Source: a virus. From it: DNA of 50,180 nt. The notes under the pieces were generated by a model that was not told the DNA's origin, ran no database searches, and saw nothing but the letters and a program-made list of their open reading frames with translations. The stretch lies in the IMG/VR virus record IMGVR_UViG_3300031864_000003, positions 1 through 50,180 of that record, one strand, 5' to 3'. Shown here one piece after another: positions 21,983 to 46,022 of this stretch. How positions within the stretch are numbered: the first letter of the stretch is position 1; every line of letters begins with the position of its first letter. The position numbers and the translations under genes are program-made.

Positions 21983-22024
21983 CCTTTATTAATTATATCG
22001 GTAAAAACCTGAAAAAGTTAAAAT
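21983..22024 (-). promoter_or_regulatory. 42-bp repeat copy 2, candidate phage promoter
   Basis: Identical to 8061-8102. On the minus strand: TTAACT, 18-base spacer, TATAAT, ending 25 bases upstream of the 131-residue module's ATG. The upstream end overlaps the last codons of the sigma-like gene. It would start transcription of the fibre block. Confidence 0.6.
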
Positions 22025-22575
22025 CTATTAAAACTAAACTCCTCTCCAAACTCCTCAACAATTATCTTTTTGAGATTAGTAATCATCAAACTTACATTCT
22101 GTATTGTGCACCCTCTCCAATTGGCAATCTCCCTCATCAAATAACCATCAACCAAATAGGCAAACAAATCCTCAACTTCACCTTTTCTCGTTCGCTGGCC
22201 CTTATTTTGCTCAATAAAAGACAAGAGCCTGTGAACCAGATCCTTATTACAAATTGTTTGCTCTATCCCATCAGAAGACAGTTCAAGGGAATTGATGAAA
22301 TCTTCAACTCTAAGATCCCCCCAATTTGAGGATTTCTCCTTTCTGATAAAATCCAACACTGCAAACCTAACCTTTTTAGCAATCCAAGTTTTTAATGATG
22401 CCCCTACAGAACCATCATAATTATCAATTGCCCTGATCATAACCTCAACAGCAATAGACATACAGTCCTCAAAAAGATGAAAAGCACAATTCTTACTCCA
22501 ACAGACATTGAAAGCAACCCCTCTTGCGAAAGAAAAGTGTTCCAGAATCAGGGCTTGGCGCTTTTGACTATTCAT
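22018..22575 (-). CDS. Sigma-70-family-like protein (late region)
   Basis: A 185-residue protein. The segment FEDCMSIAVEVMIRAIDNYD followed by GASLKTWIAKKVRFAVLDFI is the sigma region-2 pattern (DL.QE....L..A...YD...G..F.TY.......A..D..RK). The C-terminal MREIANWRGCTIQNVSLMIT resembles a region-4 helix-turn-helix. I chose the ATG at 22573-22575 (MNSQ) with AGAGGAGG upstream. It could redirect polymerase to phage promoters such as the adjacent 42-bp repeat; this is inference. Confidence 0.65.
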   Translation of the reverse strand: MNSQKRQALILEHFSFARGVAFNVCWSKNCAFHLFEDCMSIAVEVMIRAIDNYDGSVGASLKTWIAKKVRFAVLDFIRKEKSSNWGDLRVEDFINSLELSSDGIEQTICNKDLVHRLLSFIEQNKGQRTRKGEVEDLFAYLVDGYLMREIANWRGCTIQNVSLMITNLKKIIVEEFGEEFSFNRF

Positions 22576-22589
22576 TTTGACCTCCTCTT

Positions 22590-23237
22590 TCAAGAGACCA
22601 GTTTGCCAACCTTAGAAACCATATCAAGTAATTTGCTTTGATCAAACCCGTTTGAAATCTTTGCCTGGGTGTTCTTGTCCGCAGATCTGGCAATAGTGTA
22701 GCCAGTATAGGAAGTCATAAAAGCTCCCCACAGGGTTGCCCCTTGCCATAGAATCATGCTAGTAATAAGCTCCAGCAACGATTTGTCAATTTTAAAAATA
22801 GCCATAACACAAACAAGAACAGGGGAGCCAATGGTGTAGCCTACGCTCACTTTGCCAAGCAAAGCCATCATCTTGGGGCGGGCCTGGCGGACAACAGGGT
22901 CGTCGCTCAATAGAGCTGTCCTGATAACATCTCTTCCTCCGGCCACATCATCATAATCCAGTTTCTTATCCTTGTACCCCAATTCAGCCAGTTCAACTTT
23001 AGTCTCAGAAGCAATCCTTTGTTGCTCAATTTGTTGTTCCGGGGATAAAGGCTGTTTAGCAACCTCTCCAATGCCTTCTGTTACCATCTTCAAACCAGTA
23101 TTAATCTTCTCCCCTGTACTGCCCCCAACCAATTCAGCTACTGCAGATGCCCCCTTTAAAACCGGACCAATGCCTGGAATAAAACTGGCAGCAACCTTAG
23201 CCGCCTTCCCTAATGTCTTTAAAATGTCAAAGCTCAT
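22590..23237 (-). CDS. Holin of the 3-TM type
   Basis: A 215-residue protein matching the Holin_3TMs type: an N-terminal glycine/alanine hydrophobic stretch (VAASFIPGIGPVLKGASAVA), a hydrophilic middle (PLSPEQQIEQQRIA), the RDVIRTALLSDDPVVRQARP segment, then VSVGYTIGSPVLVCVMAIFK and a last membrane segment (ILWQGATLWGAFMTSYTGY). It is expected to permeabilise the inner membrane for lysozyme release. It sits far from the lysozyme gene, next to the large terminase. AAAGGAG ribosome site. Confidence 0.75.
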   Translation of the reverse strand: MSFDILKTLGKAAKVAASFIPGIGPVLKGASAVAELVGGSTGEKINTGLKMVTEGIGEVAKQPLSPEQQIEQQRIASETKVELAELGYKDKKLDYDDVAGGRDVIRTALLSDDPVVRQARPKMMALLGKVSVGYTIGSPVLVCVMAIFKIDKSLLELITSMILWQGATLWGAFMTSYTGYTIARSADKNTQAKISNGFDQSKLLDMVSKVGKLVS

Positions 23238-29787: not shown

Positions 29788-29967
29788 ATGGCAAAACTAT
29801 TCAAAGCATACGGTCAAAGCAAAATCAGCCACGCAGAGCTTGCAAGACTGATAGGCATCTATATTGCTATTAAGGTAAAAGAAGAGCTAAACATTAACAA
29901 TAAAAGAGAGGGAAAAAATGAAAATTTCAATTGGGGGAAAGACAGAAGATGCCATGAAAATACTTAG
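29788..29967 (+). CDS. 59-residue hypothetical protein
   Basis: The ATG at 29788 (MAKLFKAYGQSKISHAELAR) is selected by AAAAAGGAGG just upstream; an in-frame extension to 29722 has no ribosome site. The end overlaps the start of the J-domain gene by 50 bases. Function unknown. Confidence 0.5.
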   Translation: MAKLFKAYGQSKISHAELARLIGIYIAIKVKEELNINNKREGKNENFNWGKDRRCHENT

Positions 29968-30607
29968 CATAAACTCTTATCCCTTTTCCCCCGAAGAATT
30001 GAGTAGGAATTTCAGGATTCTTGCAAAATTCAATCATCCTGATGTCACTGGAAATCCAAACGACAATAAGAAAGTACGAAAAATCATAGAAGCATATAAA
30101 CACCTCAAAAATTTAGCGATCTTATTTACTTCTGAAAATGAGATAAAAGCAACACAGCAAAGATTTGAAGAAGATGAAGACATGTTTGGTTTGTGGGACA
30201 TATGCCCTGATTGCAAAGGAACAGGAAAAATCCAAAGGACAGATTACTTTTACAAGATATGTCCATATTGTGACCCAAATCCTAATCCTTTTAGAGGAAT
30301 TTTTTCAGACTTCCTATTTGGCTTTTCAAGAAGCTCTGGAAAGAAAACCTTAAAATGTAATGCTTGCAAAGGGACAGGAAAATTCAAACAGAAAAGCGGG
30401 AGAATCGTTGATTGTTATAAGTGCAAGGGTACAGGCATTTTTAAGATTGTCAAATGTAACTTTTGCGGAGGAAGCGGGCAGATTCCAATTACCAAAAATA
30501 CAGAATTAACATGCGAGAAATGCAAAGGACTCGGTAAAATCAAACTTAATCCATTTAACCCAGCAATAAGAAAAGGAGCAATCCTATTAAGAAAGGAGAA
30601 AAAATGA
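29918..30607 (+). CDS. J-domain protein with CxxCxGxG zinc repeats
   Basis: A 229-residue protein. Residues ~13-65 form a J-domain-like region with the HPD motif (LAKFNHPDVTGNPNDNKK), which stimulates DnaK ATPase. It is followed by DnaJ-type zinc repeats: CPDCKGTGKI, CNACKGTGKF, CYKCKGTGIF, CNFCGGSGQI and CEKCKGLGKI. DnaJ's C-terminal substrate-binding domain is absent. A phage co-chaperone that recruits host DnaK, for replication or assembly, is plausible. The helix containing HPD is shorter than in cellular DnaJ. Confidence 0.8.
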   Translation: MKISIGGKTEDAMKILSINSYPFSPEELSRNFRILAKFNHPDVTGNPNDNKKVRKIIEAYKHLKNLAILFTSENEIKATQQRFEEDEDMFGLWDICPDCKGTGKIQRTDYFYKICPYCDPNPNPFRGIFSDFLFGFSRSSGKKTLKCNACKGTGKFKQKSGRIVDCYKCKGTGIFKIVKCNFCGGSGQIPITKNTELTCEKCKGLGKIKLNPFNPAIRKGAILLRKEKK

Positions 30608-31137
30608 CTATACACAACTACACAGACTATCAACCAATGATTTTAAAATTAGCGCACGCATGGGCAAACCGTTGCAATAGGAGAGTTGAGTTTGAGGAGC
30701 TGGTTGCAGAAGGAAATCTTGCCTTTTGCATCGCCGATCAAAGATTCAACCCGAATAACGGAACACGGTTTTCAACTTACCTCTACACAGTTGCCAGCAA
30801 TGCCATGTGCGATATCACATTAGGCAACTGGCGCAAAGCACAATTTGAAATCCGAGACGAAGAGATAAATCGGCTTCCTCTCCCCCTCTCACAAACACCA
30901 GAGATGAAAACACGGCTCAAACAGTGGGTTGAAAACCTATCAAAAGAAAGCCAATTTTTAATCAGTCTGGTATGGGAAACACCTGTCGAAATCGTACAAT
31001 GGGCACGAGAGGAAACATATCTCCCCAGAAATACTCAACAAAGGCTTGAACGGCATTTGCGAAACTCAAACTGGAAATGGGCAGATATACATTCCTGTTT
31101 CCAAGAAATTAAAGAAGCATTAAGGGAGGGAATATAA
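30604..31137 (+). CDS. Sigma-70 region-2-like protein (early region)
   Basis: A 177-residue protein. Residues ~10-75 follow the sigma region-2 pattern: FEELVAEGNLAFCIADQRFN then GTRFSTYLYTVASNAMCD. The C-terminal half lacks a clear region 4. The ATG overlaps the previous stop (ATGA). It may be a divergent sigma or a helicase-loader-like regulator; the former is favoured by pattern. Confidence 0.6.
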   Translation: MTIHNYTDYQPMILKLAHAWANRCNRRVEFEELVAEGNLAFCIADQRFNPNNGTRFSTYLYTVASNAMCDITLGNWRKAQFEIRDEEINRLPLPLSQTPEMKTRLKQWVENLSKESQFLISLVWETPVEIVQWAREETYLPRNTQQRLERHLRNSNWKWADIHSCFQEIKEALREGI

Positions 31138-37143: not shown

Positions 37144-38505
37144 ATGATCGAAAAAGAAGAATACAATGAACTATTTCTCTGGTATTTAAACCAACCTTAC
37201 TTTGAAATCAATAAACAAGCAGTCAAATTATTTGGAGCAGAAATAGCAGTTTTCCTTTCATTGCTAATCGATTGGAGAGGATATCTTGAAAGCCAAAACT
37301 TATTGAACAAAGGCAATTATTTCTACCTTGAACAAAAACACATAAAAGAAAAGATTCAAATTAGTTTTGACAAGCAAGCCAAATTCATATCATTTTTCAA
37401 GGGGCTTGGAATCCTAGATATCAAGAGAGGAAAAAGTGGGGAGTTAAGAAGAAATTGGTATTATATCGATATGTTCAAATTAGTTGAAATTCTGAAAACA
37501 GAAAAACTAGATATATACAAAGTTGAGCATGGAAAAATAAAAGAACAAGAGGTATACAGTGAAACACAGGATACCCCAGTAGACCGTGAAACACAGGATA
37601 CGTATCCTGTAAAACACAGCCTTATAAATAATAACAGAGTAAATAATAACAGATTTAAGGTTACTAAAGTAACCTTAACGGATTCTTCTGAATCCGAACA
37701 AGGATTATTAAACTTAAACAATGAAACCCTTATATTAGAATCAAAGAAAATCCCTCCCAACTCTCTTCAATATAATCTCCTCAACTTTTGGAACAATCTC
37801 CCGAGCATTCCAACTATGCATATCAGATCTAATACCAAAGTGCGGTTAACCGCAGCGAAGTATCTCACTCAGCTTGCTTCAGGCCGCTTTGCCGATGGCA
37901 AGAAATTCAAACCAGGCTTCTTTAATGAACATAAACTCTCCTCATCTATACTTGCTAAACAATGGACAAGAGAAGAGATCAAGGAAGGATTGAAGCACCT
38001 TAATAACATTTTCATTGAGGGCTACTGGCCCCGGAACAAAGATAACCTGCCCAGAGATCTTGCAACCCTGCTTTATAATCCTGGCAAACAAAATAGCTGG
38101 TTTCTGATGGTCATAGGACAGGAGCCAGAGCTATTAAACAACTCAGTTAATTTCAAACCTGAAAACCACAAGGCAGCAAAACAATACCCGGATATAATAG
38201 ATCCCATAATAAAACAATTCAAGGACAAACAAGTTTTCGATCATGATGTAACTGCTAAGACAATGGATGAGATCTTATCTATAATTGAATATCATAGTCA
38301 AATGGACTTCTCTAATAACATAGCAAAATACCGATGGGGCAACCTAAAATTGTTTATTGATGACTTCTGCAATTTTATTATTTCTAAGTCTTGGCTGGAA
38401 AACAGTATAATAAATATATCAGCAGAGGGAAAGGTTTTTCAATCCTTTGTTGATGAGTGTGAAGACGAATTGTATGGGCGGGCAAGTTTAAGACCGAAGG
38501 GATAA
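37144..38505 (+). CDS. Replication initiator / replisome organiser-like protein
   Basis: A 453-residue protein. Residues ~15-115 form a winged-helix module typical of phage replication initiators (YFEINKQAVKLFGAEIAVFL, FYLEQKHIKEKIQISFDKQA, LGILDIKRGKSGELRRNWYY). A low-complexity Asn-rich linker (ENNRVNNNRF-like, residues ~160-190) separates it from a C-terminal part with LASGRFADGKKFKPGFFNEH. It probably binds the origin and loads helicase. Function by family resemblance. Confidence 0.65.
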   Translation: MIEKEEYNELFLWYLNQPYFEINKQAVKLFGAEIAVFLSLLIDWRGYLESQNLLNKGNYFYLEQKHIKEKIQISFDKQAKFISFFKGLGILDIKRGKSGELRRNWYYIDMFKLVEILKTEKLDIYKVEHGKIKEQEVYSETQDTPVDRETQDTYPVKHSLINNNRVNNNRFKVTKVTLTDSSESEQGLLNLNNETLILESKKIPPNSLQYNLLNFWNNLPSIPTMHIRSNTKVRLTAAKYLTQLASGRFADGKKFKPGFFNEHKLSSSILAKQWTREEIKEGLKHLNNIFIEGYWPRNKDNLPRDLATLLYNPGKQNSWFLMVIGQEPELLNNSVNFKPENHKAAKQYPDIIDPIIKQFKDKQVFDHDVTAKTMDEILSIIEYHSQMDFSNNIAKYRWGNLKLFIDDFCNFIISKSWLENSIINISAEGKVFQSFVDECEDELYGRASLRPKG

Positions 38506-38694: not shown

Positions 38695-38718
38695 CCCACA
38701 CAACCTTAAAACCTAAAT

Positions 38719-38794
38719 GCGGGGATAGTGCAAGGGTAGAATATCCTTTATCCCAAAAGGAAGATGGCGGTTCGATTCCGACCTCTCCGCTCCA
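38719..38794 (+). tRNA. tRNA-Gly(CCC)-like gene with irregular anticodon and T arms
   Basis: 76 bases including an encoded CCA. Acceptor GCGGGGA pairs with TCTCCGC (one G-U); discriminator T as in bacterial tRNA-Gly. T loop GTTCGATTC is canonical. The anticodon stem TCCTT/AAGGA closes an 8-base loop containing TCCC instead of 7; the T stem GGCGG/CCGACC needs a bulged A; the D stem GTGC/GAAT has one mismatch. Overall it resembles bacterial tRNA-Gly(CCC) carrying two single-base insertions. It may be a decaying phage tRNA. An overlapping ORF (38691-38882) is therefore unlikely. Confidence 0.6.
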
Positions 38795-39203: not shown

Positions 39204-39328
39204 AACTTTACTATTCATTTCTAAACATAATAATATTGCTAATCGGTATCATCCTTACCCCTTTTGCTTTTTTATATTATGGTATTAAGGGAACTTTGAC
39301 TTGGTGGAAAGGATTTTTGTGGAGATGA
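39200..39328 (+). CDS. 42-residue membrane peptide
   Basis: The ORF encodes MKLYYSFLNIIILLIGIILT ... ending GFLWR, a single TM helix followed by aromatic residues. Overlaps neighbours by ATGA. Small phage membrane peptides of this kind are common; role unknown. Confidence 0.5.
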   Translation: MKLYYSFLNIIILLIGIILTPFAFLYYGIKGTLTWWKGFLWR

Positions 39329-39757: not shown

Positions 39758-39955
39758 ATGAATAAAATCGCAATAAATAAAATAAATCCAATATTCAAAG
39801 TTCATGTATTAGTTAACAATCGAGAGCTTGTGAAGGTCCTCCCAAACAACAAGGTTATTATCATAGATGATATTACGTTTGATGAAGCATTACAGGCGAT
39901 TGAATATATGGCAGCATCTTTGGCAAAATGTAAGGCGTTGGGAGGAAAATTATGA
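39758..39955 (+). CDS. 65-residue hypothetical protein
   Basis: The ORF encodes MNKIAINKINPIFKVHVLVN ... ending KALGGKL. ATG at 39758. Its 3' end contains GCGTTGGGAGG, which resembles the right core of an attC site and serves as the ribosome site of the next gene; this may be chance. Function unknown. Confidence 0.5.
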   Translation: MNKIAINKINPIFKVHVLVNNRELVKVLPNNKVIIIDDITFDEALQAIEYMAASLAKCKALGGKL

Positions 39956-40227
39956 TAGAAACAATACAGATATATGATGAGCAGGTACACGATTTAATTA
40001 ATCAGGTTGACCAAGTATGTCATAATTTTGATGCTTCAAAATATGGCATACCTCCAGAACCAATAAGAAACAAAATCAAAATGCTTGTCTATAGATGGAT
40101 AGTCTCCCAACAAGTCACTCCAGCAGACGGGATTATCTGCTGCACAGAATGTGGTTGGAAGTATCCATATCATACAAGGGCTTGCTCGCATAGTATTTGT
40201 TTGGATATGTCACAATCCCGCCACTGA
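39952..40227 (+). CDS. 91-residue protein, candidate first cassette ORF
   Basis: The ORF encodes MIETIQIYDEQVHDLINQVD ... with CCTECGWKYPYHTRACSHSI, a CxEC...C zinc-like cluster at the C-terminus. It is followed by CACTGAGTTTAGGCGTTAGGA (right-hand core of an attC-like site at 40236-40242). A left-hand core is not evident. Function unknown. Confidence 0.5.
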   Translation: MIETIQIYDEQVHDLINQVDQVCHNFDASKYGIPPEPIRNKIKMLVYRWIVSQQVTPADGIICCTECGWKYPYHTRACSHSICLDMSQSRH

Positions 40228-40251
40228 GTTTAGGCGTTAGGAGGAGAAAAA

Positions 40252-40458
40252 ATGGATTGGCAACCAATAGAAACAGCACCGAAAGATGGAAGCCACGTTT
40301 ATCTATTTAGGCCGGAAATACAATTTGCAGGGTATTGGGGCGGGGCTAATTCTGGGTGGCGGATAAATGCCCCTGGTTTGCCAGCTATGTGGCCACTGCC
40401 AACACATTGGGCTCCACAATTGCTACCTCCTAACCAATCCCTGAACTCCGACCCTTAA
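40252..40458 (+). CDS. Cassette ORF 1, DUF551-like protein
   Basis: The ORF encodes MDWQPIETAPKDGSHVYLFR ... PTHWAPQLLPP. The pattern WQPIETAPKDG ... W.......G..A......P.HWAPL is a widespread short phage/bacterial module. The stop lies inside the attC-like site 40428-40497, as is usual in integron cassettes. GGAGG precedes the ATG, formed by the previous site's core. Confidence 0.65.
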   Translation: MDWQPIETAPKDGSHVYLFRPEIQFAGYWGGANSGWRINAPGLPAMWPLPTHWAPQLLPPNQSLNSDP

Positions 40459-40497
40459 TAGCACGCTATTTCGGGCGGGTTAGGGAAGGCGTTAAAT
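40428..40497 (+). repeat. attC-like site B
   Basis: Left core CCTAAC, right core GCGTTAAAT (GTTRRRY). The arms TCCCTGAACTCCGACCC and GGGCGGGTTAGGGA pair over 13 bp with three single-base bulges (G, T, A, all in the left arm), and an inner stem AATAGC/GCTATT closes the hairpin. This is the imperfect-hairpin architecture with extrahelical bases that integron integrases recognise. Confidence 0.82.
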
Positions 40498-40512
40498 TGA
40501 AAGGAGGATAAG

Positions 40513-40692
40513 ATGGAAGATGAATTAATATCAGTTGGTTTTCGTTATATCAGGCGGGCTGAAGTAGCATCCGAATCTGATATAAAATATTGGGCTGAGA
40601 TTTCAGATAAAAAGTTGGCACAACAAGCCTTAGAATTTATCAAGGAACAATCTAACCAGGGCACTGAAGCTGACGCTTTTCTGGCGGGTTAG
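40513..40692 (+). CDS. Cassette ORF 2
   Basis: A 59-residue protein (MEDELISVGFRYIRRAEVAS ... ending EADAFLAG). AAGGAGG upstream. The stop falls inside attC-like site C. Function unknown. Confidence 0.55.
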   Translation: MEDELISVGFRYIRRAEVASESDIKYWAEISDKKLAQQALEFIKEQSNQGTEADAFLAG

Positions 40693-40738
40693 AGCGTTAA
40701 TATATAGAGTTTTTTCCGGTTAATACTATGCGTTAGGT
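40650..40738 (+). repeat. attC-like site C (degenerate)
   Basis: Left core ATCTAAC matches RYYYAAC, right core GTTAGGT matches GTTRRRY. The inner arms CACTGAAGCTGACGC and GCGGGTTAG pair only partly. A shorter version ending at GCGTTAATA (40702) is the alternative. Confidence 0.5.
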
Positions 40739-40744
40739 CACTAA

Positions 40745-40972
40745 ATGAAAATATATGCGTTTGAGTTTTGTCCATGTAAATTTGAAAGTGCTTTTGAAAC
40801 GGTTAGCCTACATTTCAAAATAGCGGATGCTTATATGGCAATGAGAAAACATAGAGCAGAAGAACTGAATAAGTGGAATGAGATGTTGAGAGTCTGTGGA
40901 AAAAGAATGCATAGGGGAGATAAGCCCTGCGATGATATGCTTTTTAGAGTAAAAGAAAGAACAGTGACCTAA
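40745..40972 (+). CDS. Cassette ORF 3
   Basis: A 75-residue protein (MKIYAFEFCPCKFESAFETV ... ending VKERTVT) with CPC near the start and two more cysteines. The stop (TAA) lies in the left core of attC-like site D. No ribosome site is clear. Function unknown. Confidence 0.5.
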   Translation: MKIYAFEFCPCKFESAFETVSLHFKIADAYMAMRKHRAEELNKWNEMLRVCGKRMHRGDKPCDDMLFRVKERTVT

Positions 40973-41036
40973 CAAGCAAATGAACTCTGACCCAAAATAA
41001 ACTACCATTTTAGGCAGGTTATTAGCGGCGTTATGT
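40967..41036 (+). repeat. attC-like site D
   Basis: Left core ACCTAAC, right core GCGTTATGT. The arms ATGAACTCTGACC and GGCAGGTTAT pair with the same three bulge positions (G, T, A) as site B. It ends where the tRNA-Leu-like gene begins, so the tRNA is the body of the next cassette. Confidence 0.8.
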
Positions 41037-41160
41037 GGCAGTGGCGAAATTGGTAGACGCAAGCCGTCAAGTGGTATCACAGTAAACCATAAACGGCTCT
41101 GTGATTAGGTAGGTGGGGTCGAAGCCCACGGCCTTTGCGGGTTCGAATCCTGTCTGCCAC
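41035..41160 (+). tRNA. tRNA-Leu-like gene with enlarged anticodon/variable region, carried as a cassette
   Basis: Perfect 7-bp acceptor GTGGCAG/CTGCCAC, a tRNA-Leu-type D arm (TGGCGAAATTGGTAGACGC) and a T arm GCGGG-TTCGAAT-CCTGT, total 126 bases without CCA, about 40 more than a normal tRNA-Leu. Two foldings compete. One has AGCCGT/ACGGCT as anticodon stem with a loop of ~25 bases (an insertion in the anticodon loop). The other has AAGCC-GTCAAGT-GGTAT (anticodon CAA) followed by a variable region with hairpins ATCACAG/CTGTGAT and GTGGG/CCCAC. The class (Leu-like) is fair; the anticodon is not secure. Confidence 0.6.
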
Positions 41161-41230
41161 ATAACAAATCACTTAACTCAGACAGGGTTATCGCTACGCT
41201 CAACCCTGCTGGTTAATTCGGGCGTTAACA
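41159..41230 (+). repeat. attC-like site E
   Basis: Begins at the 3' end of the tRNA (ATAAC) and ends at GGCGTTAAC. The arms TTAACTCAGACAGGGTT and AACCCTGCTGGTTAA pair over 15 bp with two bulged bases (T and A, at the same relative places as in sites B, D and G). Confidence 0.8.
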
Positions 41231-41244
41231 AGAAAGGGGATTAG

Positions 41245-41442
41245 ATGTTCAATATTTATGATTCAGAATGTCCTGTTTGCAAAACTATGAAGAAAGTCAT
41301 AGTCAAAAGGCTTGAGAATCATCCAGATTTGGGAAAAATAGAACACATTTCTACTGAATGCTGGGGGTATGCTCCATCAGATAATGAAGTAGTTGTAGAA
41401 GCTTTCTGTCCTGGATGTGGTGTAAAGTTTATCGTTTGCTAA
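41245..41442 (+). CDS. Cassette ORF 5, zinc-ribbon protein
   Basis: A 65-residue protein with two CPxC knuckles (SECPVCKT and FCPGCGVKF) forming a zinc ribbon. AAAGGGG site. The stop lies in the left core of attC-like site F. Function unknown. Confidence 0.6.
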   Translation: MFNIYDSECPVCKTMKKVIVKRLENHPDLGKIEHISTECWGYAPSDNEVVVEAFCPGCGVKFIVC

Positions 41443-41495
41443 CAAGCCCACTGAAGCCGACAGCAAATAGCTGCTGGTTAGCTCAGGCGTTAGCA
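41437..41495 (+). repeat. attC-like site F
   Basis: Left core TGCTAAC is the exact complement of right core GTTAGCA, as expected for integron sites. The inner arms ACTGAAGCCGACAGC and GCTGCTGGTTAG pair with bulges on both sides. Shorter than its neighbours (59 bases). Confidence 0.75.
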
Positions 41496-41513
41496 AATTA
41501 AGAGGAGGAAACT

Positions 41514-41579
41514 ATGAATTATTATTTATTATCTGGTTTTATGATAATTTTTATAAGTTTTGCTTTTTTCATGGATTAA
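41514..41579 (+). CDS. Cassette ORF 6, 21-residue hydrophobic peptide (uncertain)
   Basis: The ORF encodes MNYYLLSGFMIIFISFAFFM then D. A good AGAGGAGG site. In another frame the cassette stays open to 41652 (FYDNFYKFCFFHGLNKNWHA ...) without a start, so the cassette may hold a frameshifted ~47-residue membrane protein. Confidence 0.35.
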   Translation: MNYYLLSGFMIIFISFAFFMD

Positions 41580-41655
41580 ATAAAAATTGGCACGCTACAC
41601 TTGGATGGTTATGTGCATGGTTTTGTGCATGTGTTTTGATGATGAAGGCTTAATT

Positions 41656-41726
41656 TGCTAACCAATCCCCGAACTCCGACCCTCAATAGCTATGCTACTT
41701 CGGGCGGGTTATTAGCGGCGTTAGGA
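41656..41726 (+). repeat. attC-like site G
   Basis: Left core TGCTAAC, right core GTTAGGA. The arms GAACTCCGACCC and GGGCGGGTT pair with bulges G, T and A in the left arm exactly as in site B; inner stem TAGC/GCTA. Sites B and G share nearly all of their arm sequence. Confidence 0.82.
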
Positions 41727-41732
41727 GGAATT

Positions 41733-41951
41733 ATGAAATTAACAGAATTATATGAATCCGAGACAGGTGAAAAAGCCATATATCATAAGGGCAGCAGTGA
41801 CTATCATACACTTAGATATGTTCAGTGGCTTGAGAATCGAGCCTCCCAACAACCAAATGCAGTAGATGGGAATGATGTCATGCAAAATTATGTACCTGGA
41901 TGGAAAAGGCACGATTCAACAGATGATGCAAAAGATTATTCCCACCGCTGA
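41733..41951 (+). CDS. Cassette ORF 7
   Basis: A 72-residue protein (MKLTELYESETGEKAIYHKG ... ending DAKDYSHR); the ATG at 41733 lies seven bases after the core of site G, with TTAGGAGG as ribosome site supplied by the core itself. No attC is evident after it. Confidence 0.55.
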   Translation: MKLTELYESETGEKAIYHKGSSDYHTLRYVQWLENRASQQPNAVDGNDVMQNYVPGWKRHDSTDDAKDYSHR

Positions 41952-41980
41952 TTAGGGCATTAATGTAAAAGGAGAAAACA

Positions 41981-42184
41981 ATGGCACAGATTGAAATTGA
42001 AGGTAAGAAGTACAAAGTTTTAGACAATCTAAACTATGTCCATGAGGTTGGTGCATATGTAAAAGAAGTTGAAACCCCATCAGGGGCTAAGATGGCAATT
42101 AAGCGCAGAGGATCGGCTTGGCGGTTTTGGACAGTTAAGGATAGGCTATCTGGTGGTATGGCAAGCCGTCCTATTGGAATGTAA
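41981..42184 (+). CDS. 67-residue hypothetical protein
   Basis: The ORF encodes MAQIEIEGKKYKVLDNLNYV ... ending MASRPIGM. Small beta-rich protein, AAAGGAG site. Followed by an attC-like remnant. Function unknown. Confidence 0.55.
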   Translation: MAQIEIEGKKYKVLDNLNYVHEVGAYVKEVETPSGAKMAIKRRGSAWRFWTVKDRLSGGMASRPIGM

Positions 42185-42187
42185 TTG

Positions 42188-42234
42188 GTGTTAACAAATC
42201 CCTGAACCAGACAGCAATAGCCGCTAGTTAGCTT
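42188..42234 (+). repeat. attC-like remnant
   Basis: TGTTAACAAATCCCTGAACC, ACAGC...GCT and GTTAG elements are present but the right GCGTTRRR core is replaced by GCTTAGAAAAAG. Likely a decayed site marking the right end of the array. Confidence 0.4.
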
Positions 42235-42268
42235 AGAAAAAGTTTGAAATAAAAAGGGAGCAGATGCA

Positions 42269-42550
42269 ATGGAACTAAAAGGCTTTGATAGCCTTAATAA
42301 ACGTGACTTTGAAAATGAGGCTGTTATTGGGGAAATTCGGGAAGTATTTAAAGAAAATCAAATATTGCGTGAATTGCTATGGCTGAATCATGGTCACACA
42401 GGACAATATGGAGATGATGGAGAAATGCAATGCGGGCAATGTGCACAAGAATATGGCTTTTGGGATTGGAAGCGCACACCCGCTAAAGAGATCCAAGAGA
42501 AGATGCAAAAAGCAAGTATGAAAGCATTTTTTGGAAAGACATTATTGTGA
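42269..42550 (+). CDS. 93-residue CxxC protein
   Basis: The ORF encodes MELKGFDSLNKRDFENEAVI ... with LWLNHGHTGQYGDDGEMQCG then QCAQEYGFWDWKRTP, a common small phage protein (H-x-H plus CxxC, probably zinc binding). Its stop overlaps the GTG of the next gene. Confidence 0.6.
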   Translation: MELKGFDSLNKRDFENEAVIGEIREVFKENQILRELLWLNHGHTGQYGDDGEMQCGQCAQEYGFWDWKRTPAKEIQEKMQKASMKAFFGKTLL

Positions 42551-42831
42551 TTAAATCTGGTTTTTTTGATCTTAAAAATTTACGAAGCAAAGAGACGGAA
42601 ATACAGATTCCACAACAAACCATTCCAACAGAAAACAACCAATATGAAGGGCAGGAAAAATGCCCAATTTGCGGGGGCACAATCATTTATAAATGGGAAA
42701 AGGGCAAAGGATTTACAATCTATGAATGCTCAACCAATGACTGCCTGCCATGGCCTGTTGGAAGAGCAAAAAAGAGAAGGGAGGCTGGGTTGTCTCCAAT
42801 TATCCCGACAAGATATGAAAGGGGGGAATGA
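42547..42831 (+). CDS. 94-residue zinc-ribbon protein
   Basis: GTG start overlapping the upstream stop. Contains EKCPICGGTIIYKWEKGKGF and YECSTNDCLPWP, a four-Cys zinc ribbon. It ends directly before the HAD-like gene. Function unknown. Confidence 0.6.
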   Translation: MIKSGFFDLKNLRSKETEIQIPQQTIPTENNQYEGQEKCPICGGTIIYKWEKGKGFTIYECSTNDCLPWPVGRAKKRREAGLSPIIPTRYERGE

Positions 42832-43428
42832 ATGAAATTTGCAACTGATCTTGATATGGTATTAGCAGATTCCCATTCAGTATGGCTCACAGGTCTTGCG
42901 AAAAGATATGGATCATTTTCCTTGAATCATTATAGAATTAAAATTAAAGGAACTCACTGGAAAAAGATTTCAGATTTCATAAATCGATCATTGTTAGCCC
43001 ATTCAGAAAAGATCAAACCTATTCAGACCTCGGTGAATGCCCTTCCTGAGATCATGGATTTTTTCAAACAACTCTATCTTCCAATAATTTCAAGCAGACA
43101 ATCATATCTTTATGACTGCACAAAGGCATGGTGCAAGGCTAACTTACCAGTGCCATTCAAACTCTTCCTCACAAATGATAGCAAATTAAAAATAATAGAG
43201 GACAATGACATTACAGTTTTTGCTGATGACAGATTTGAAACTATAAACGAAATCAGCCCAATTATTTCGACAGCCTTTTTGATAGATCAGAAATGGAATC
43301 AGGGGCGACCGGAAATTCTAAATGTGATAAGAGTAAACAATTTACAAGAAGCCTTGGAGTATTTGAAAAATGATAACTTGCAAAAAATACCCTTTCAAAA
43401 CAAGGAAGGAAGCCCAAGCAACTCTTAA
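42832..43428 (+). CDS. HAD-like 5'-nucleotidase-type phosphatase
   Basis: A 198-residue protein starting MKFATDLDMVLADSHSVWLT; DLDMVLADS is HAD motif I (D-x-D). Later SSRQSYLYDCTKAWC and FADDRFETINEI give the motif II and D-D/E motif IV regions. It resembles 5'(3')-deoxyribonucleotidase-like HADs in phages, which adjust nucleotide pools. GGGGGG-rich ribosome site. Confidence 0.65.
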   Translation: MKFATDLDMVLADSHSVWLTGLAKRYGSFSLNHYRIKIKGTHWKKISDFINRSLLAHSEKIKPIQTSVNALPEIMDFFKQLYLPIISSRQSYLYDCTKAWCKANLPVPFKLFLTNDSKLKIIEDNDITVFADDRFETINEISPIISTAFLIDQKWNQGRPEILNVIRVNNLQEALEYLKNDNLQKIPFQNKEGSPSNS

Positions 43429-43615
43429 ATACCGAAAAGAACTTCCCTTTGGCACACCGTATCGATGCAAAATTTGCGGGTATTGGCATCTTGGGCATAA
43501 ATGGAAGACTCCTAAGAAAAGTCATTTGGGCAAAATATACAGAAGAAAAGCACTTGAAAGAAGACATGTGAAAAGATTGCTTCAAATGATTGATAAAATG
43601 TGCGGAGTTGAATAA
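43370..43615 (+). CDS. 81-residue basic zinc-finger protein
   Basis: A very basic protein: CKKYPFKTRKEAQATLKYRK, YRCKICGYWHLGHKW (CxxC...HxxxH zinc finger), then KIYRRKALERRHVKRLLQMI. Overlaps the HAD gene by 59 bases and ends on the ATG of the SNF2-like gene. Likely nucleic-acid binding. Confidence 0.6.
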   Translation: MITCKKYPFKTRKEAQATLKYRKELPFGTPYRCKICGYWHLGHKWKTPKKSHLGKIYRRKALERRHVKRLLQMIDKMCGVE

Positions 43616-44994
43616 TGGAAGGATATGAGCAGTTTTTAGAGGGAAAGCAAATTGTTGACCAAAAGAGTGGATTTGAAGTTCCTTTGGAAGATTTGAACTC
43701 AATGCTTTTCAATTGGCAAAAGGTCATTGAAAGATGGGCTCTTGCCAGAGGAAGAGCTGCCCTATTTGAGGATTGTGGCCTTGGGAAAACCCCCCAACAG
43801 CTTGAATGGGCAAATCAGATTTGTAAAAAGGAAAAGGAACCAGTTCTGATCTTGGCTCCATTAGCAGTATCAGAGCAGACCCGACAGGAGGGAGAAAAAT
43901 TCGGGATTCCTGTAAATGTTTGCCCAAGCGATGCATATATTAAAGATGGAATAAATATAACAAATTATGAAAAATTACATAAATTCAAACCAGAAAGGTT
44001 CATTGGGATTGTCTTGGATGAGTCAAGCATCCTCAAAAATTTCACAGGAGCAATCCGCAACGAGATTATAGATGCCTTTCAAAAGACAAAGTATCGGCTC
44101 GCCTGCACCGCAACTCCTGCTCCAAACGATTACATGGAATTGGGAAATCATGCAGAGTTCTTAGGCATAATGACCCGCACAGAGATGCTGTCTACATTCT
44201 TTATCAACGATACGTCTAATACAGGTACATGGCGACTAAAAGGGCATGTCAGAAACAACATCTTTTGGGAATGGTTGAGCAGCTGGGCAGTCATGATTAA
44301 TAAGCCATCTGATATTGGTTTTGATGATGATGGTTTTATCCTTCCCAAAATAAGATACCACGAGCATATCATTCTAAGCACAGCAAAGCCCTTTGGCTTA
44401 TTGACAGAGACTGCATCAACATTAGATGAACGAAGGCAGGTGAGGAGAGAAACGATCAAGTTGCGAGTTGATGAGGCAGCAGCAATTATAAATGACTCAA
44501 TGATTCCTTGGGTCATCTGGGTCAACTTGAATCCTGAAGGAGAATATGCAACAAAAAAAATTCATCATGCAATTGAGGTTGCAGGCCGGCATGACAATGA
44601 AATTAAGTCTGAAAGAATGCTTGGATTTGCAAATGGAAAATACAGACGGATAGTAACCAAGCCAAAAATAGCTGGATTGGGAATGAATTGGCAAATTTGC
44701 AATAAGGCTGCTTTCATCGGATTGAGCGATTCATGGGAGCAATTTTATCAAGCTGTGAGAAGGATATGGCGTTTTGGGCAACAACATGAAGTCGATATTC
44801 ACATATTTATTGAAGAGCGGGAGGGCAGCGTGCTTCAAAATATCCGACGCAAAGACAAACAAGCTCGACTGATGACTGAAAGCATGGTCAGGCATATGAA
44901 AAGTTTGACAAAAAAAGAATTAGGGCAAACGGGAAGAACTTTTGTTGACTACTACCCTACTGAAGAAATGAGGTTACCAAAATGGATCAGATGA
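43615..44994 (+). CDS. SNF2-like DEAD-box helicase
   Basis: A 459-residue SF2 protein. Motif I LFEDCGLGKTPQQLEWANQI, Ia VLILAPLAVSEQTRQEG, II GIVLDESSILKNFTG (DESS instead of DEAH), III RLACTATPAPNDYMELGNHA; second RecA half KPKIAGLGMNWQICNKAAFI, QAVRRIWRFGQQHEVDIHIF. This is the type commonly encoded directly before a DNA methyltransferase in phages. It overlaps the methyltransferase gene. Confidence 0.85.
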   Translation: MEGYEQFLEGKQIVDQKSGFEVPLEDLNSMLFNWQKVIERWALARGRAALFEDCGLGKTPQQLEWANQICKKEKEPVLILAPLAVSEQTRQEGEKFGIPVNVCPSDAYIKDGINITNYEKLHKFKPERFIGIVLDESSILKNFTGAIRNEIIDAFQKTKYRLACTATPAPNDYMELGNHAEFLGIMTRTEMLSTFFINDTSNTGTWRLKGHVRNNIFWEWLSSWAVMINKPSDIGFDDDGFILPKIRYHEHIILSTAKPFGLLTETASTLDERRQVRRETIKLRVDEAAAIINDSMIPWVIWVNLNPEGEYATKKIHHAIEVAGRHDNEIKSERMLGFANGKYRRIVTKPKIAGLGMNWQICNKAAFIGLSDSWEQFYQAVRRIWRFGQQHEVDIHIFIEEREGSVLQNIRRKDKQARLMTESMVRHMKSLTKKELGQTGRTFVDYYPTEEMRLPKWIR

Positions 44995-46022
44995 TTGAGG
45001 AGGTTGAATTTTATGAACGACATTTAAAAAATGCAAAATCAAAGTTGTATGAAGAATTGCACACTCAGAGAAGGCAGAAGCCGAGAGTCCTTTCTCAAAA
45101 GATAACTGAAAAATGGTCTGTATATCACGGGGATGCTGTCGAGATTATAAAAGGGCTTCCATCAAATAAAATTCATTATTCAATTTTTAGTCCACCTTTT
45201 AGTTCATTGTTTACATATTCAGCTTCAGTCCGAGATATGGGCAATTCAACAGATGAAGAATTTTATAGCCATTTTCAATTCCTCATCCCAGAACTATATC
45301 GAGTATTGATGCCAGGACGGTTAATCACCTTACATTGTTCTGATATACCTGCAATGAAAGAGAGAGATGGATACATTGGCATGAAAGATTTTCCCGGAAT
45401 ATTATTAAAGGAATTTGAGCGGGTAGGATTTATTTATCACAGTAAATGTCTAATTTGGAAAGATCCATTATTAGAGGCTGTTCGCACAAAATCTCTTGGT
45501 CTTGCTCATAAACAAATATCCAAAGATTCTGCAATGTGTCGAAACGGGACCCCTGATTATATATTAACTGTACGCAAACCAGGGGAGAATCAAGAACCAA
45601 TATCACATGGTAGAGGATTTGAAAGATATATTGGAGAAAAGGAAGAACCAACTGCCAAAAAACAAAACAACCCAAAAAAGAATAAATATAGCCATTATGT
45701 CTGGCAAAGATATGCATCCCCTGTTTGGATGGACATTCGACAATCAAATACCCTAAATATCAAACAAGCAAGAGAGAAAGACGATGAAAGGCATATTTGC
45801 CCCTTGCAATTAGATGCAATTGCCCGGTGCCTTGAGTTATGGACGAATCCTGGGGATATTGTCTTGTCACCTTTCGCAGGGATTGGCAGTGAAGGATATG
45901 AAGCTGTTCGCATGGGACGCAGGGCGATTTTAATTGAATTAAAAAAATCATATTACGACCTGTCTGTTAAGTATATGCATCAAGCAGAACAATTAGCCCA
46001 ATCAGAAGGGTTTGGGTTATAA
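44982..46022 (+). CDS. DNA methyltransferase (N4/N6, beta-type order)
   Basis: A 346-residue protein. Catalytic motif SIFSPPFSSLF (SPPF), near the N-terminus, and SAM-binding motif LSPFAGIGSEGYEAVRMGRR near the C-terminus give the beta-class order. SPPF favours N4-cytosine. A central region (KNKYSHYVWQRYASPVWMDI) is the recognition part. No restriction enzyme is adjacent, so it is probably an anti-restriction or regulatory modification. Its start overlaps the SNF2-like gene. Confidence 0.85.
   Translation: MDQMIEEVEFYERHLKNAKSKLYEELHTQRRQKPRVLSQKITEKWSVYHGDAVEIIKGLPSNKIHYSIFSPPFSSLFTYSASVRDMGNSTDEEFYSHFQFLIPELYRVLMPGRLITLHCSDIPAMKERDGYIGMKDFPGILLKEFERVGFIYHSKCLIWKDPLLEAVRTKSLGLAHKQISKDSAMCRNGTPDYILTVRKPGENQEPISHGRGFERYIGEKEEPTAKKQNNPKKNKYSHYVWQRYASPVWMDIRQSNTLNIKQAREKDDERHICPLQLDAIARCLELWTNPGDIVLSPFAGIGSEGYEAVRMGRRAILIELKKSYYDLSVKYMHQAEQLAQSEGFGL

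Follow-up and report, generated by a model that had tools for sequence, protein, structure and literature searches.

A probable integrase-less array of integron gene cassettes in the replication arm of a tailed phage

Introduction

Gene-cassette arrays that lack an integrase (CALINs) have been known in phages since 2023, when Qi et al. reported 17 of them among 10,705 phage genomes, virulent ones included, and found that five of six tested phage attC sites recombined with IntI1 (PMC9892861). Phages TJE1, P12002L and PH101 resemble the presumably virulent phage described here in combining a virulent life style, attC clusters without IntI and small ORFs; the cassettes of TJE1 and PH101 are also oriented as in our array, although that of TJE1 (three attC sites, four ORFs) is shorter (PMC9892861). 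Shewanella prophage M16-3, with an integron and a CALIN, likewise has an attI adjoining a cassette array within a phage genome, but its IntI is intact and its attI is a known Shewanella site, whereas our locus has no IntI and an attI-like element without a bacterial match (PMC9892861). Bacterial CALINs and sedentary chromosomal integrons (as defined in IntegronFinder) have the same attC architecture and single-gene cassettes of unknown function, but do not share the position of the present array in a phage replication arm. True gene cassettes in phages connect two main routes of bacterial gene exchange.

The window analysed here is the whole of IMG/VR record IMGVR_UViG_3300031864_000003 (50,180 nt, classed as linear), a metagenome contig from an environmental sample. 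The original prediction overrated the novelty of its cassette array, since CALINs in virulent phages had already been reported (Qi et al., 2023; PMC9892861). What this locus, known from sequence alone, adds to TJE1, P12002L and PH101 is a cassette of tRNA-like type, together with a 36-bp attI-like element that an unrelated phage shares.

Results and discussion

The phage and its gene context

Genes for terminase, portal and major head protein lie on the minus strand and those for helicase, primase and a DnaB-like protein on the plus strand (PHROGs), with best matches of about 1e-36 to 1e-77 for the terminase subunits, portal, major head protein, primase and helicases. Judged by its terminase, portal, major head protein and replication genes, the window is a tailed phage. 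Neither the integron integrase model TIGR02249 across the whole record nor the tyrosine recombinase family PF00589 gave a match, and a virulent life style is likely because both enzymes are missing. Two sigma-70-like genes were seen, one encoding a region 2 protein next to a DnaJ-like zinc-finger protein (29918-31137) and the other at 22018-22593 on the minus strand.

A 51-kb relative (G002) shares about 74-87% DNA identity with the window over common genes and is syntenic with it on both sides of a variable region (window positions 37657-38505 and 42658-42839). Between these blocks G002 is mostly unrelated to the window and free of attC clusters, and the array is absent from it and from more distant phage relatives. 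In the variable region, shortly before the array begins, ARAGORN called a tRNA at 38718-38790; its two-base anticodon (cc) is unusual, and the gene may be a degenerate or variant tRNA. The phage gene at the array's left edge begins like a free-standing gene of G002 (G002:11121-11276; 46% identity over 54 amino acids, tblastn), and this homology stops where site A starts; to the right of the array, homology to G002 picks up again in the gene at 42547.

These edges bear on the possibility that a fragment of a bacterial integron was misjoined to phage DNA during assembly, a reading that the metagenomic origin of the contig and the lack of an array in its relatives would allow. We regard such a chimera as very improbable, given that the gene in which the left edge falls shows phage-gene homology at its N-terminus, that base composition shows no abrupt difference, and that a second phage contig shares both the 36-bp element and a stretch outside the array (see below). 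Contamination likewise appears unlikely as the source of the array, because the left-edge gene begins like a G002 phage gene and ends within site A.

Detection of attC sites

Two detectors were used: a position weight matrix (PWM) from 13 class 1 integron attC sites of plasmids L081-L085, none of them related to the window, and a small covariance model (R1) built from 12 class 1 attC sites and run over 320 kb. The resulting map of the array is as follows.

39952-40227, plus strand: left-edge phage gene; the N-terminal 54 amino acids resemble the G002 gene, the C-terminus is encoded by site A
40106-40242, plus strand: attC-like site A; PWM 27.4; long central part, upstream ORF reads through
40236-40490, plus strand: cassette 1; ORF 40252-40458 (WQPIETAPKDG-type protein), ATG 16 nt past the core, stop within site B; own-end match 9/9
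40429-40497, plus strand: attC site B; PWM 26.2; R1 16.8 bits; cassette-form hairpin -19.4 kcal/mol, z -4.3
40491-40695, plus strand: cassette 2; ORF 40513-40692, stop within site C; own-end match 8/9
40651-40702, plus strand: attC site C, shortened and weak; PWM 16.9 with the right core at 40732 (PWM span 40651-40738); hairpin not significant (z -1.0)
40696-40731, plus strand: 36-bp attI-like element with a G|TT point at either end; separates cassettes 2 and 3
40732-41029, plus strand: cassette 3; ORF 40745-40972; own-end exact run 11 nt
40968-41036, plus strand: attC site D; PWM 24.2; cassette-form hairpin -18.3 kcal/mol, z -6.5
41030-41223, plus strand: cassette 4; tRNA-like gene 41035-41161, no clear ORF; own-end exact run 12 nt
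41160-41230, plus strand: attC site E; PWM 22.4; R1 25.7 bits, E 0.0013; cassette-form hairpin -23.4 kcal/mol, z -8.2
41224-41488, plus strand: cassette 5; ORF 41245-41442, Cys-rich, stop within site G; own-end match 7/9
41438-41495, plus strand: attC site G; PWM 28.2; R1 23.0 bits
41489-41719, plus strand: cassette 6; short ORF 41514-41579 (21 amino acids, hydrophobic), stop outside the attC site; own-end exact run 14 nt
41657-41726, plus strand: attC site F; PWM 26.7; cassette-form hairpin -17.2 kcal/mol, z -4.1
41720-41962, plus strand: cassette 7; ORF 41733-41951; own attC from 41845 long and degenerate, core GCATTA; start GTTAGGAGG against 5' arm CCTCCCAAC, 8/9 by direct reading
41963-42240, plus strand: cassette 8; ORF 41981-42184; ends in truncated attC H
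42190-42240, plus strand: truncated attC H, right edge of the array; PWM 17.4, left half 15.0

Six sites (A, B, D, E, G and F; 40106-41726) scored at least 20 with the PWM, all on the plus strand, as are the weaker C (16.9) and H (17.4); the rest of the 50-kb window held no score of at least 18 on either strand. By chance, scores of at least 20 arose at 0.125 per 50-kb strand (40 first-order Markov sequences), and other viral DNA amounting to about 0.96 Mb, searched on both strands, gave such hits in isolation and never as a cluster. A CALIN is recognized by at least two nearby attC sites; here six PWM sites lie inside 1.7 kb. With phage genes on either side and neither TIGR02249 nor PF00589 represented, the predicted cluster of attC sites without an integrase in a phage was thus borne out.

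The covariance-model check that had been proposed for the locus, carried out with R1 in place of the published model, pointed the same way: R1 returned 14 matches at E ≤ 1, which fell without exception into the window array, the array of a second phage (L087 = L090) and attC sites at three gammaproteobacterial loci, and at four window sites (E, G, B and F) it agreed with the PWM at this threshold. R1 is the weaker detector, because it missed sites D and C.

Cassette ends and hairpins

An integron cassette inserts as a circle, in which its first bases and its terminal attC site were once joined into a complete site. The first nine bases of six window cassettes paired with the 5' arm of their own attC site at 9, 8, 9, 9, 7 and 9 positions, a mean of 8.5 against 5.6 for other pairings that was equalled in 68 of 20,000 permutations. 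For the cassettes of L087 the corresponding counts were 9, 6, 8, 9 and 7, and over both phages the mean of 8.2 of 9 (5.6 for other pairs) was matched by none of 20,000 permutations. Cassette starts therefore pair with the 5' arm of the attC site in the same cassette and not with that of the neighbour.

Folding gave a matching picture. On the bottom strand, sites B, D, E and F need closure of the cassette on itself to form full attC hairpins; as arrayed, their hairpins have energies of -12.4, -9.3, -11.2 and -10.5 kcal/mol, respectively, and closure turns these moderate structures into full attC stems with an unpaired central spacer and extrahelical bases. The closed D-to-E cassette yields a textbook attC, with a 12-bp outer stem, an open central spacer and an inner part composed of a stem with single-base bulges and a small loop. 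Sites C and G gained nothing from closure, and neither gave a significant hairpin in the closed form. Of the original assignment, in which four sites folded and F and C were weaker, D, E and G stand as full attC sites and C as a weak one, but F proved to be full as well.

That the hairpins might be ordinary phage terminators or regulatory structures with only a resemblance to attC is hardly credible. Although attC sites may act as weak terminators (PMC9892861), terminators would not be expected to have TAAC...GCGTTA cores, own-end complementarity and a site at each ORF boundary, and terminator-like sites in the array region are in no excess (3 versus 3.2 by chance).

Own-end pairing, the strongest line of evidence, shows, as far as sequence can, that the cassettes in the two phages were formerly circles handled by an integron integrase, and it is this pairing, together with the closed-cassette hairpins, that argues for their insertion as circles by such an enzyme. 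We consider it very probable that the locus is a CALIN, an array of integron gene cassettes lacking an integrase, located among the replication genes of a tailed phage and made up of former single circles on which an integron integrase acted. Each unit consists of a small gene or RNA with its own attC site at the end. The integrase, for which the phage has no gene, would have placed the single circles at G|TT points. It was presumably supplied in trans by the infected host, whose integron integrase most likely both made and inserted the cassettes. Sites A, C, H and that of cassette 7 are degenerate or truncated, and some of the array may therefore be dead.

A tRNA-like cassette

The RNA of cassette 4 (41035-41161) scored 33.5 bits with Rfam RF00005, against a gathering score of 29. 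Its acceptor stem (GTGGCAG/CTGCCAC), D arm and T arm fit a tRNA; its middle comprises 66 nt versus the 17 expected, and ARAGORN calls it only when introns are allowed. The acceptor stem coincides with the complementary cassette ends, i.e. the recombination arms. No other viral contig matched the tRNA-like pattern, and the open-access literature, with most subscription papers outside its scope, yielded no report of tRNA cassettes in integrons. This cassette suggests that the payload can be something other than a protein gene.

The 36-bp attI-like element and a second phage

Only one IMG/VR contig matched the attC pattern, a 32.6-kb contig of a phage (L087/G001) that has no IntI and in which inspection showed terminase- and Mu-portal-like genes. 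It carries five attC sites between phage genes and, directly before its first cassette, two tandem copies of the 36-bp element (window 40696-40731 versus L087:511-586, 86-89% identity). Within IMG/VR the full element occurs only in these two unrelated phages, in both of which a cassette adjoins it. Besides L087, eight viral contigs contain its 16-base core, TTAATACTATGCGTTA, all eight lacking both the full element and an attC site; the exact pattern of the element had no match in 84,980 genomes.

By its position the element appears attI-like; our preferred interpretation is a remnant, or else a copy, of a docking site of the attI type, putatively from the same host integron family. A mini-cassette was ruled out, as the element has no RYYYAAC arm complementary to its start, and a promoter was rejected, as the scan gave no promoter-like site there. 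If the element is a docking site, phages could be loaded repeatedly rather than carry one accidental fragment. A broader proposal, that some phages possess an integron platform without an integrase, made up of cassettes and an attI-like docking site, through which the integrase of any integron-bearing host loads small accessory genes and tRNA-like RNAs into the replication operon, is one that we put forward tentatively and consider doubtful.

Outside the arrays, window 39222-39328 and G001 1326-1432 share 107 bp at 91% identity, and because of this stretch the two phages probably meet in the same hosts. It codes for a short hydrophobic peptide and points to recent exchange between phages.

Two places of assembly can be considered. 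The array and its attI-like piece could have been put together in a bacterial chromosome and have entered the phage in one illegitimate or homologous recombination, so that no integrase acted on phage DNA; this reading, which we give nearly an even chance, disputes only where the cassettes were assembled and leaves the identity of the array unchanged. It would account for a single block in one variable region, with the truncated H at its right edge and the half-site A at its left, and illegitimate recombination at GTTRRRY motifs has been proposed for other phages (Qi et al., PMC9892861). Against it, the attI-like element has cassettes on both sides, and two unrelated phages carry the element with differing cassettes and attC sites. 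We slightly favour insertion within the phage DNA over assembly in a bacterial chromosome followed by a block move.

The attC pattern was present in three gammaproteobacterial loci, one of them in a genome with a full IntI; 398 genomes of that phylum gave only the one already known. No bacterial integron with these cassettes or with the attI-like element was found. The suggestion that the phage itself picks up cassettes from host integrons during infection may hold but was not borne out: neither an empty site nor the host integron was found, and the array may have arrived as a block.

The last gene of G001 resembles that of a bacterial oxidoreductase (by eye), which hints that this contig is a prophage. 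The ORFs of its first two cassettes (L087 581-1926) run on the opposite strand, and a strong sigma-70 promoter look-alike (TTGACA ... TATAAT type) stands before each one, unlike in the window cassettes.

Cassette genes and their expression

All cassettes point in the same direction as the phage replication genes, as had been predicted. In seven cassettes the ORF starts with an ATG 13-25 nt past the core, and in five of these seven the stop falls inside a site; the predicted alternation of small ORFs and sites holds to this extent, but the D-to-E interval contains the tRNA-like RNA instead. No cassette ORF matched a Pfam or PHROGs family at E < 0.001. The WQPIETAPKDG protein had matches in one Pseudanabaena phage and weak, partial ones in four bacterial frames, with none in plasmids.

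As for expression from the early phage promoter, the direction of the cassettes fits the prediction, but promoter-like matches from 38.4 to 42.7 kb are in no excess (7 versus 13.1 by chance), and read-through would have to be assumed. The cassettes would then be read in the phage direction, probably within its operon.

A helicase and a DNA methyltransferase gene (43615-46022) are paired in 79 of 80 viral loci; the pair shares just about 42% protein identity with the closest relative, G002, and represents a mobile two-gene module.
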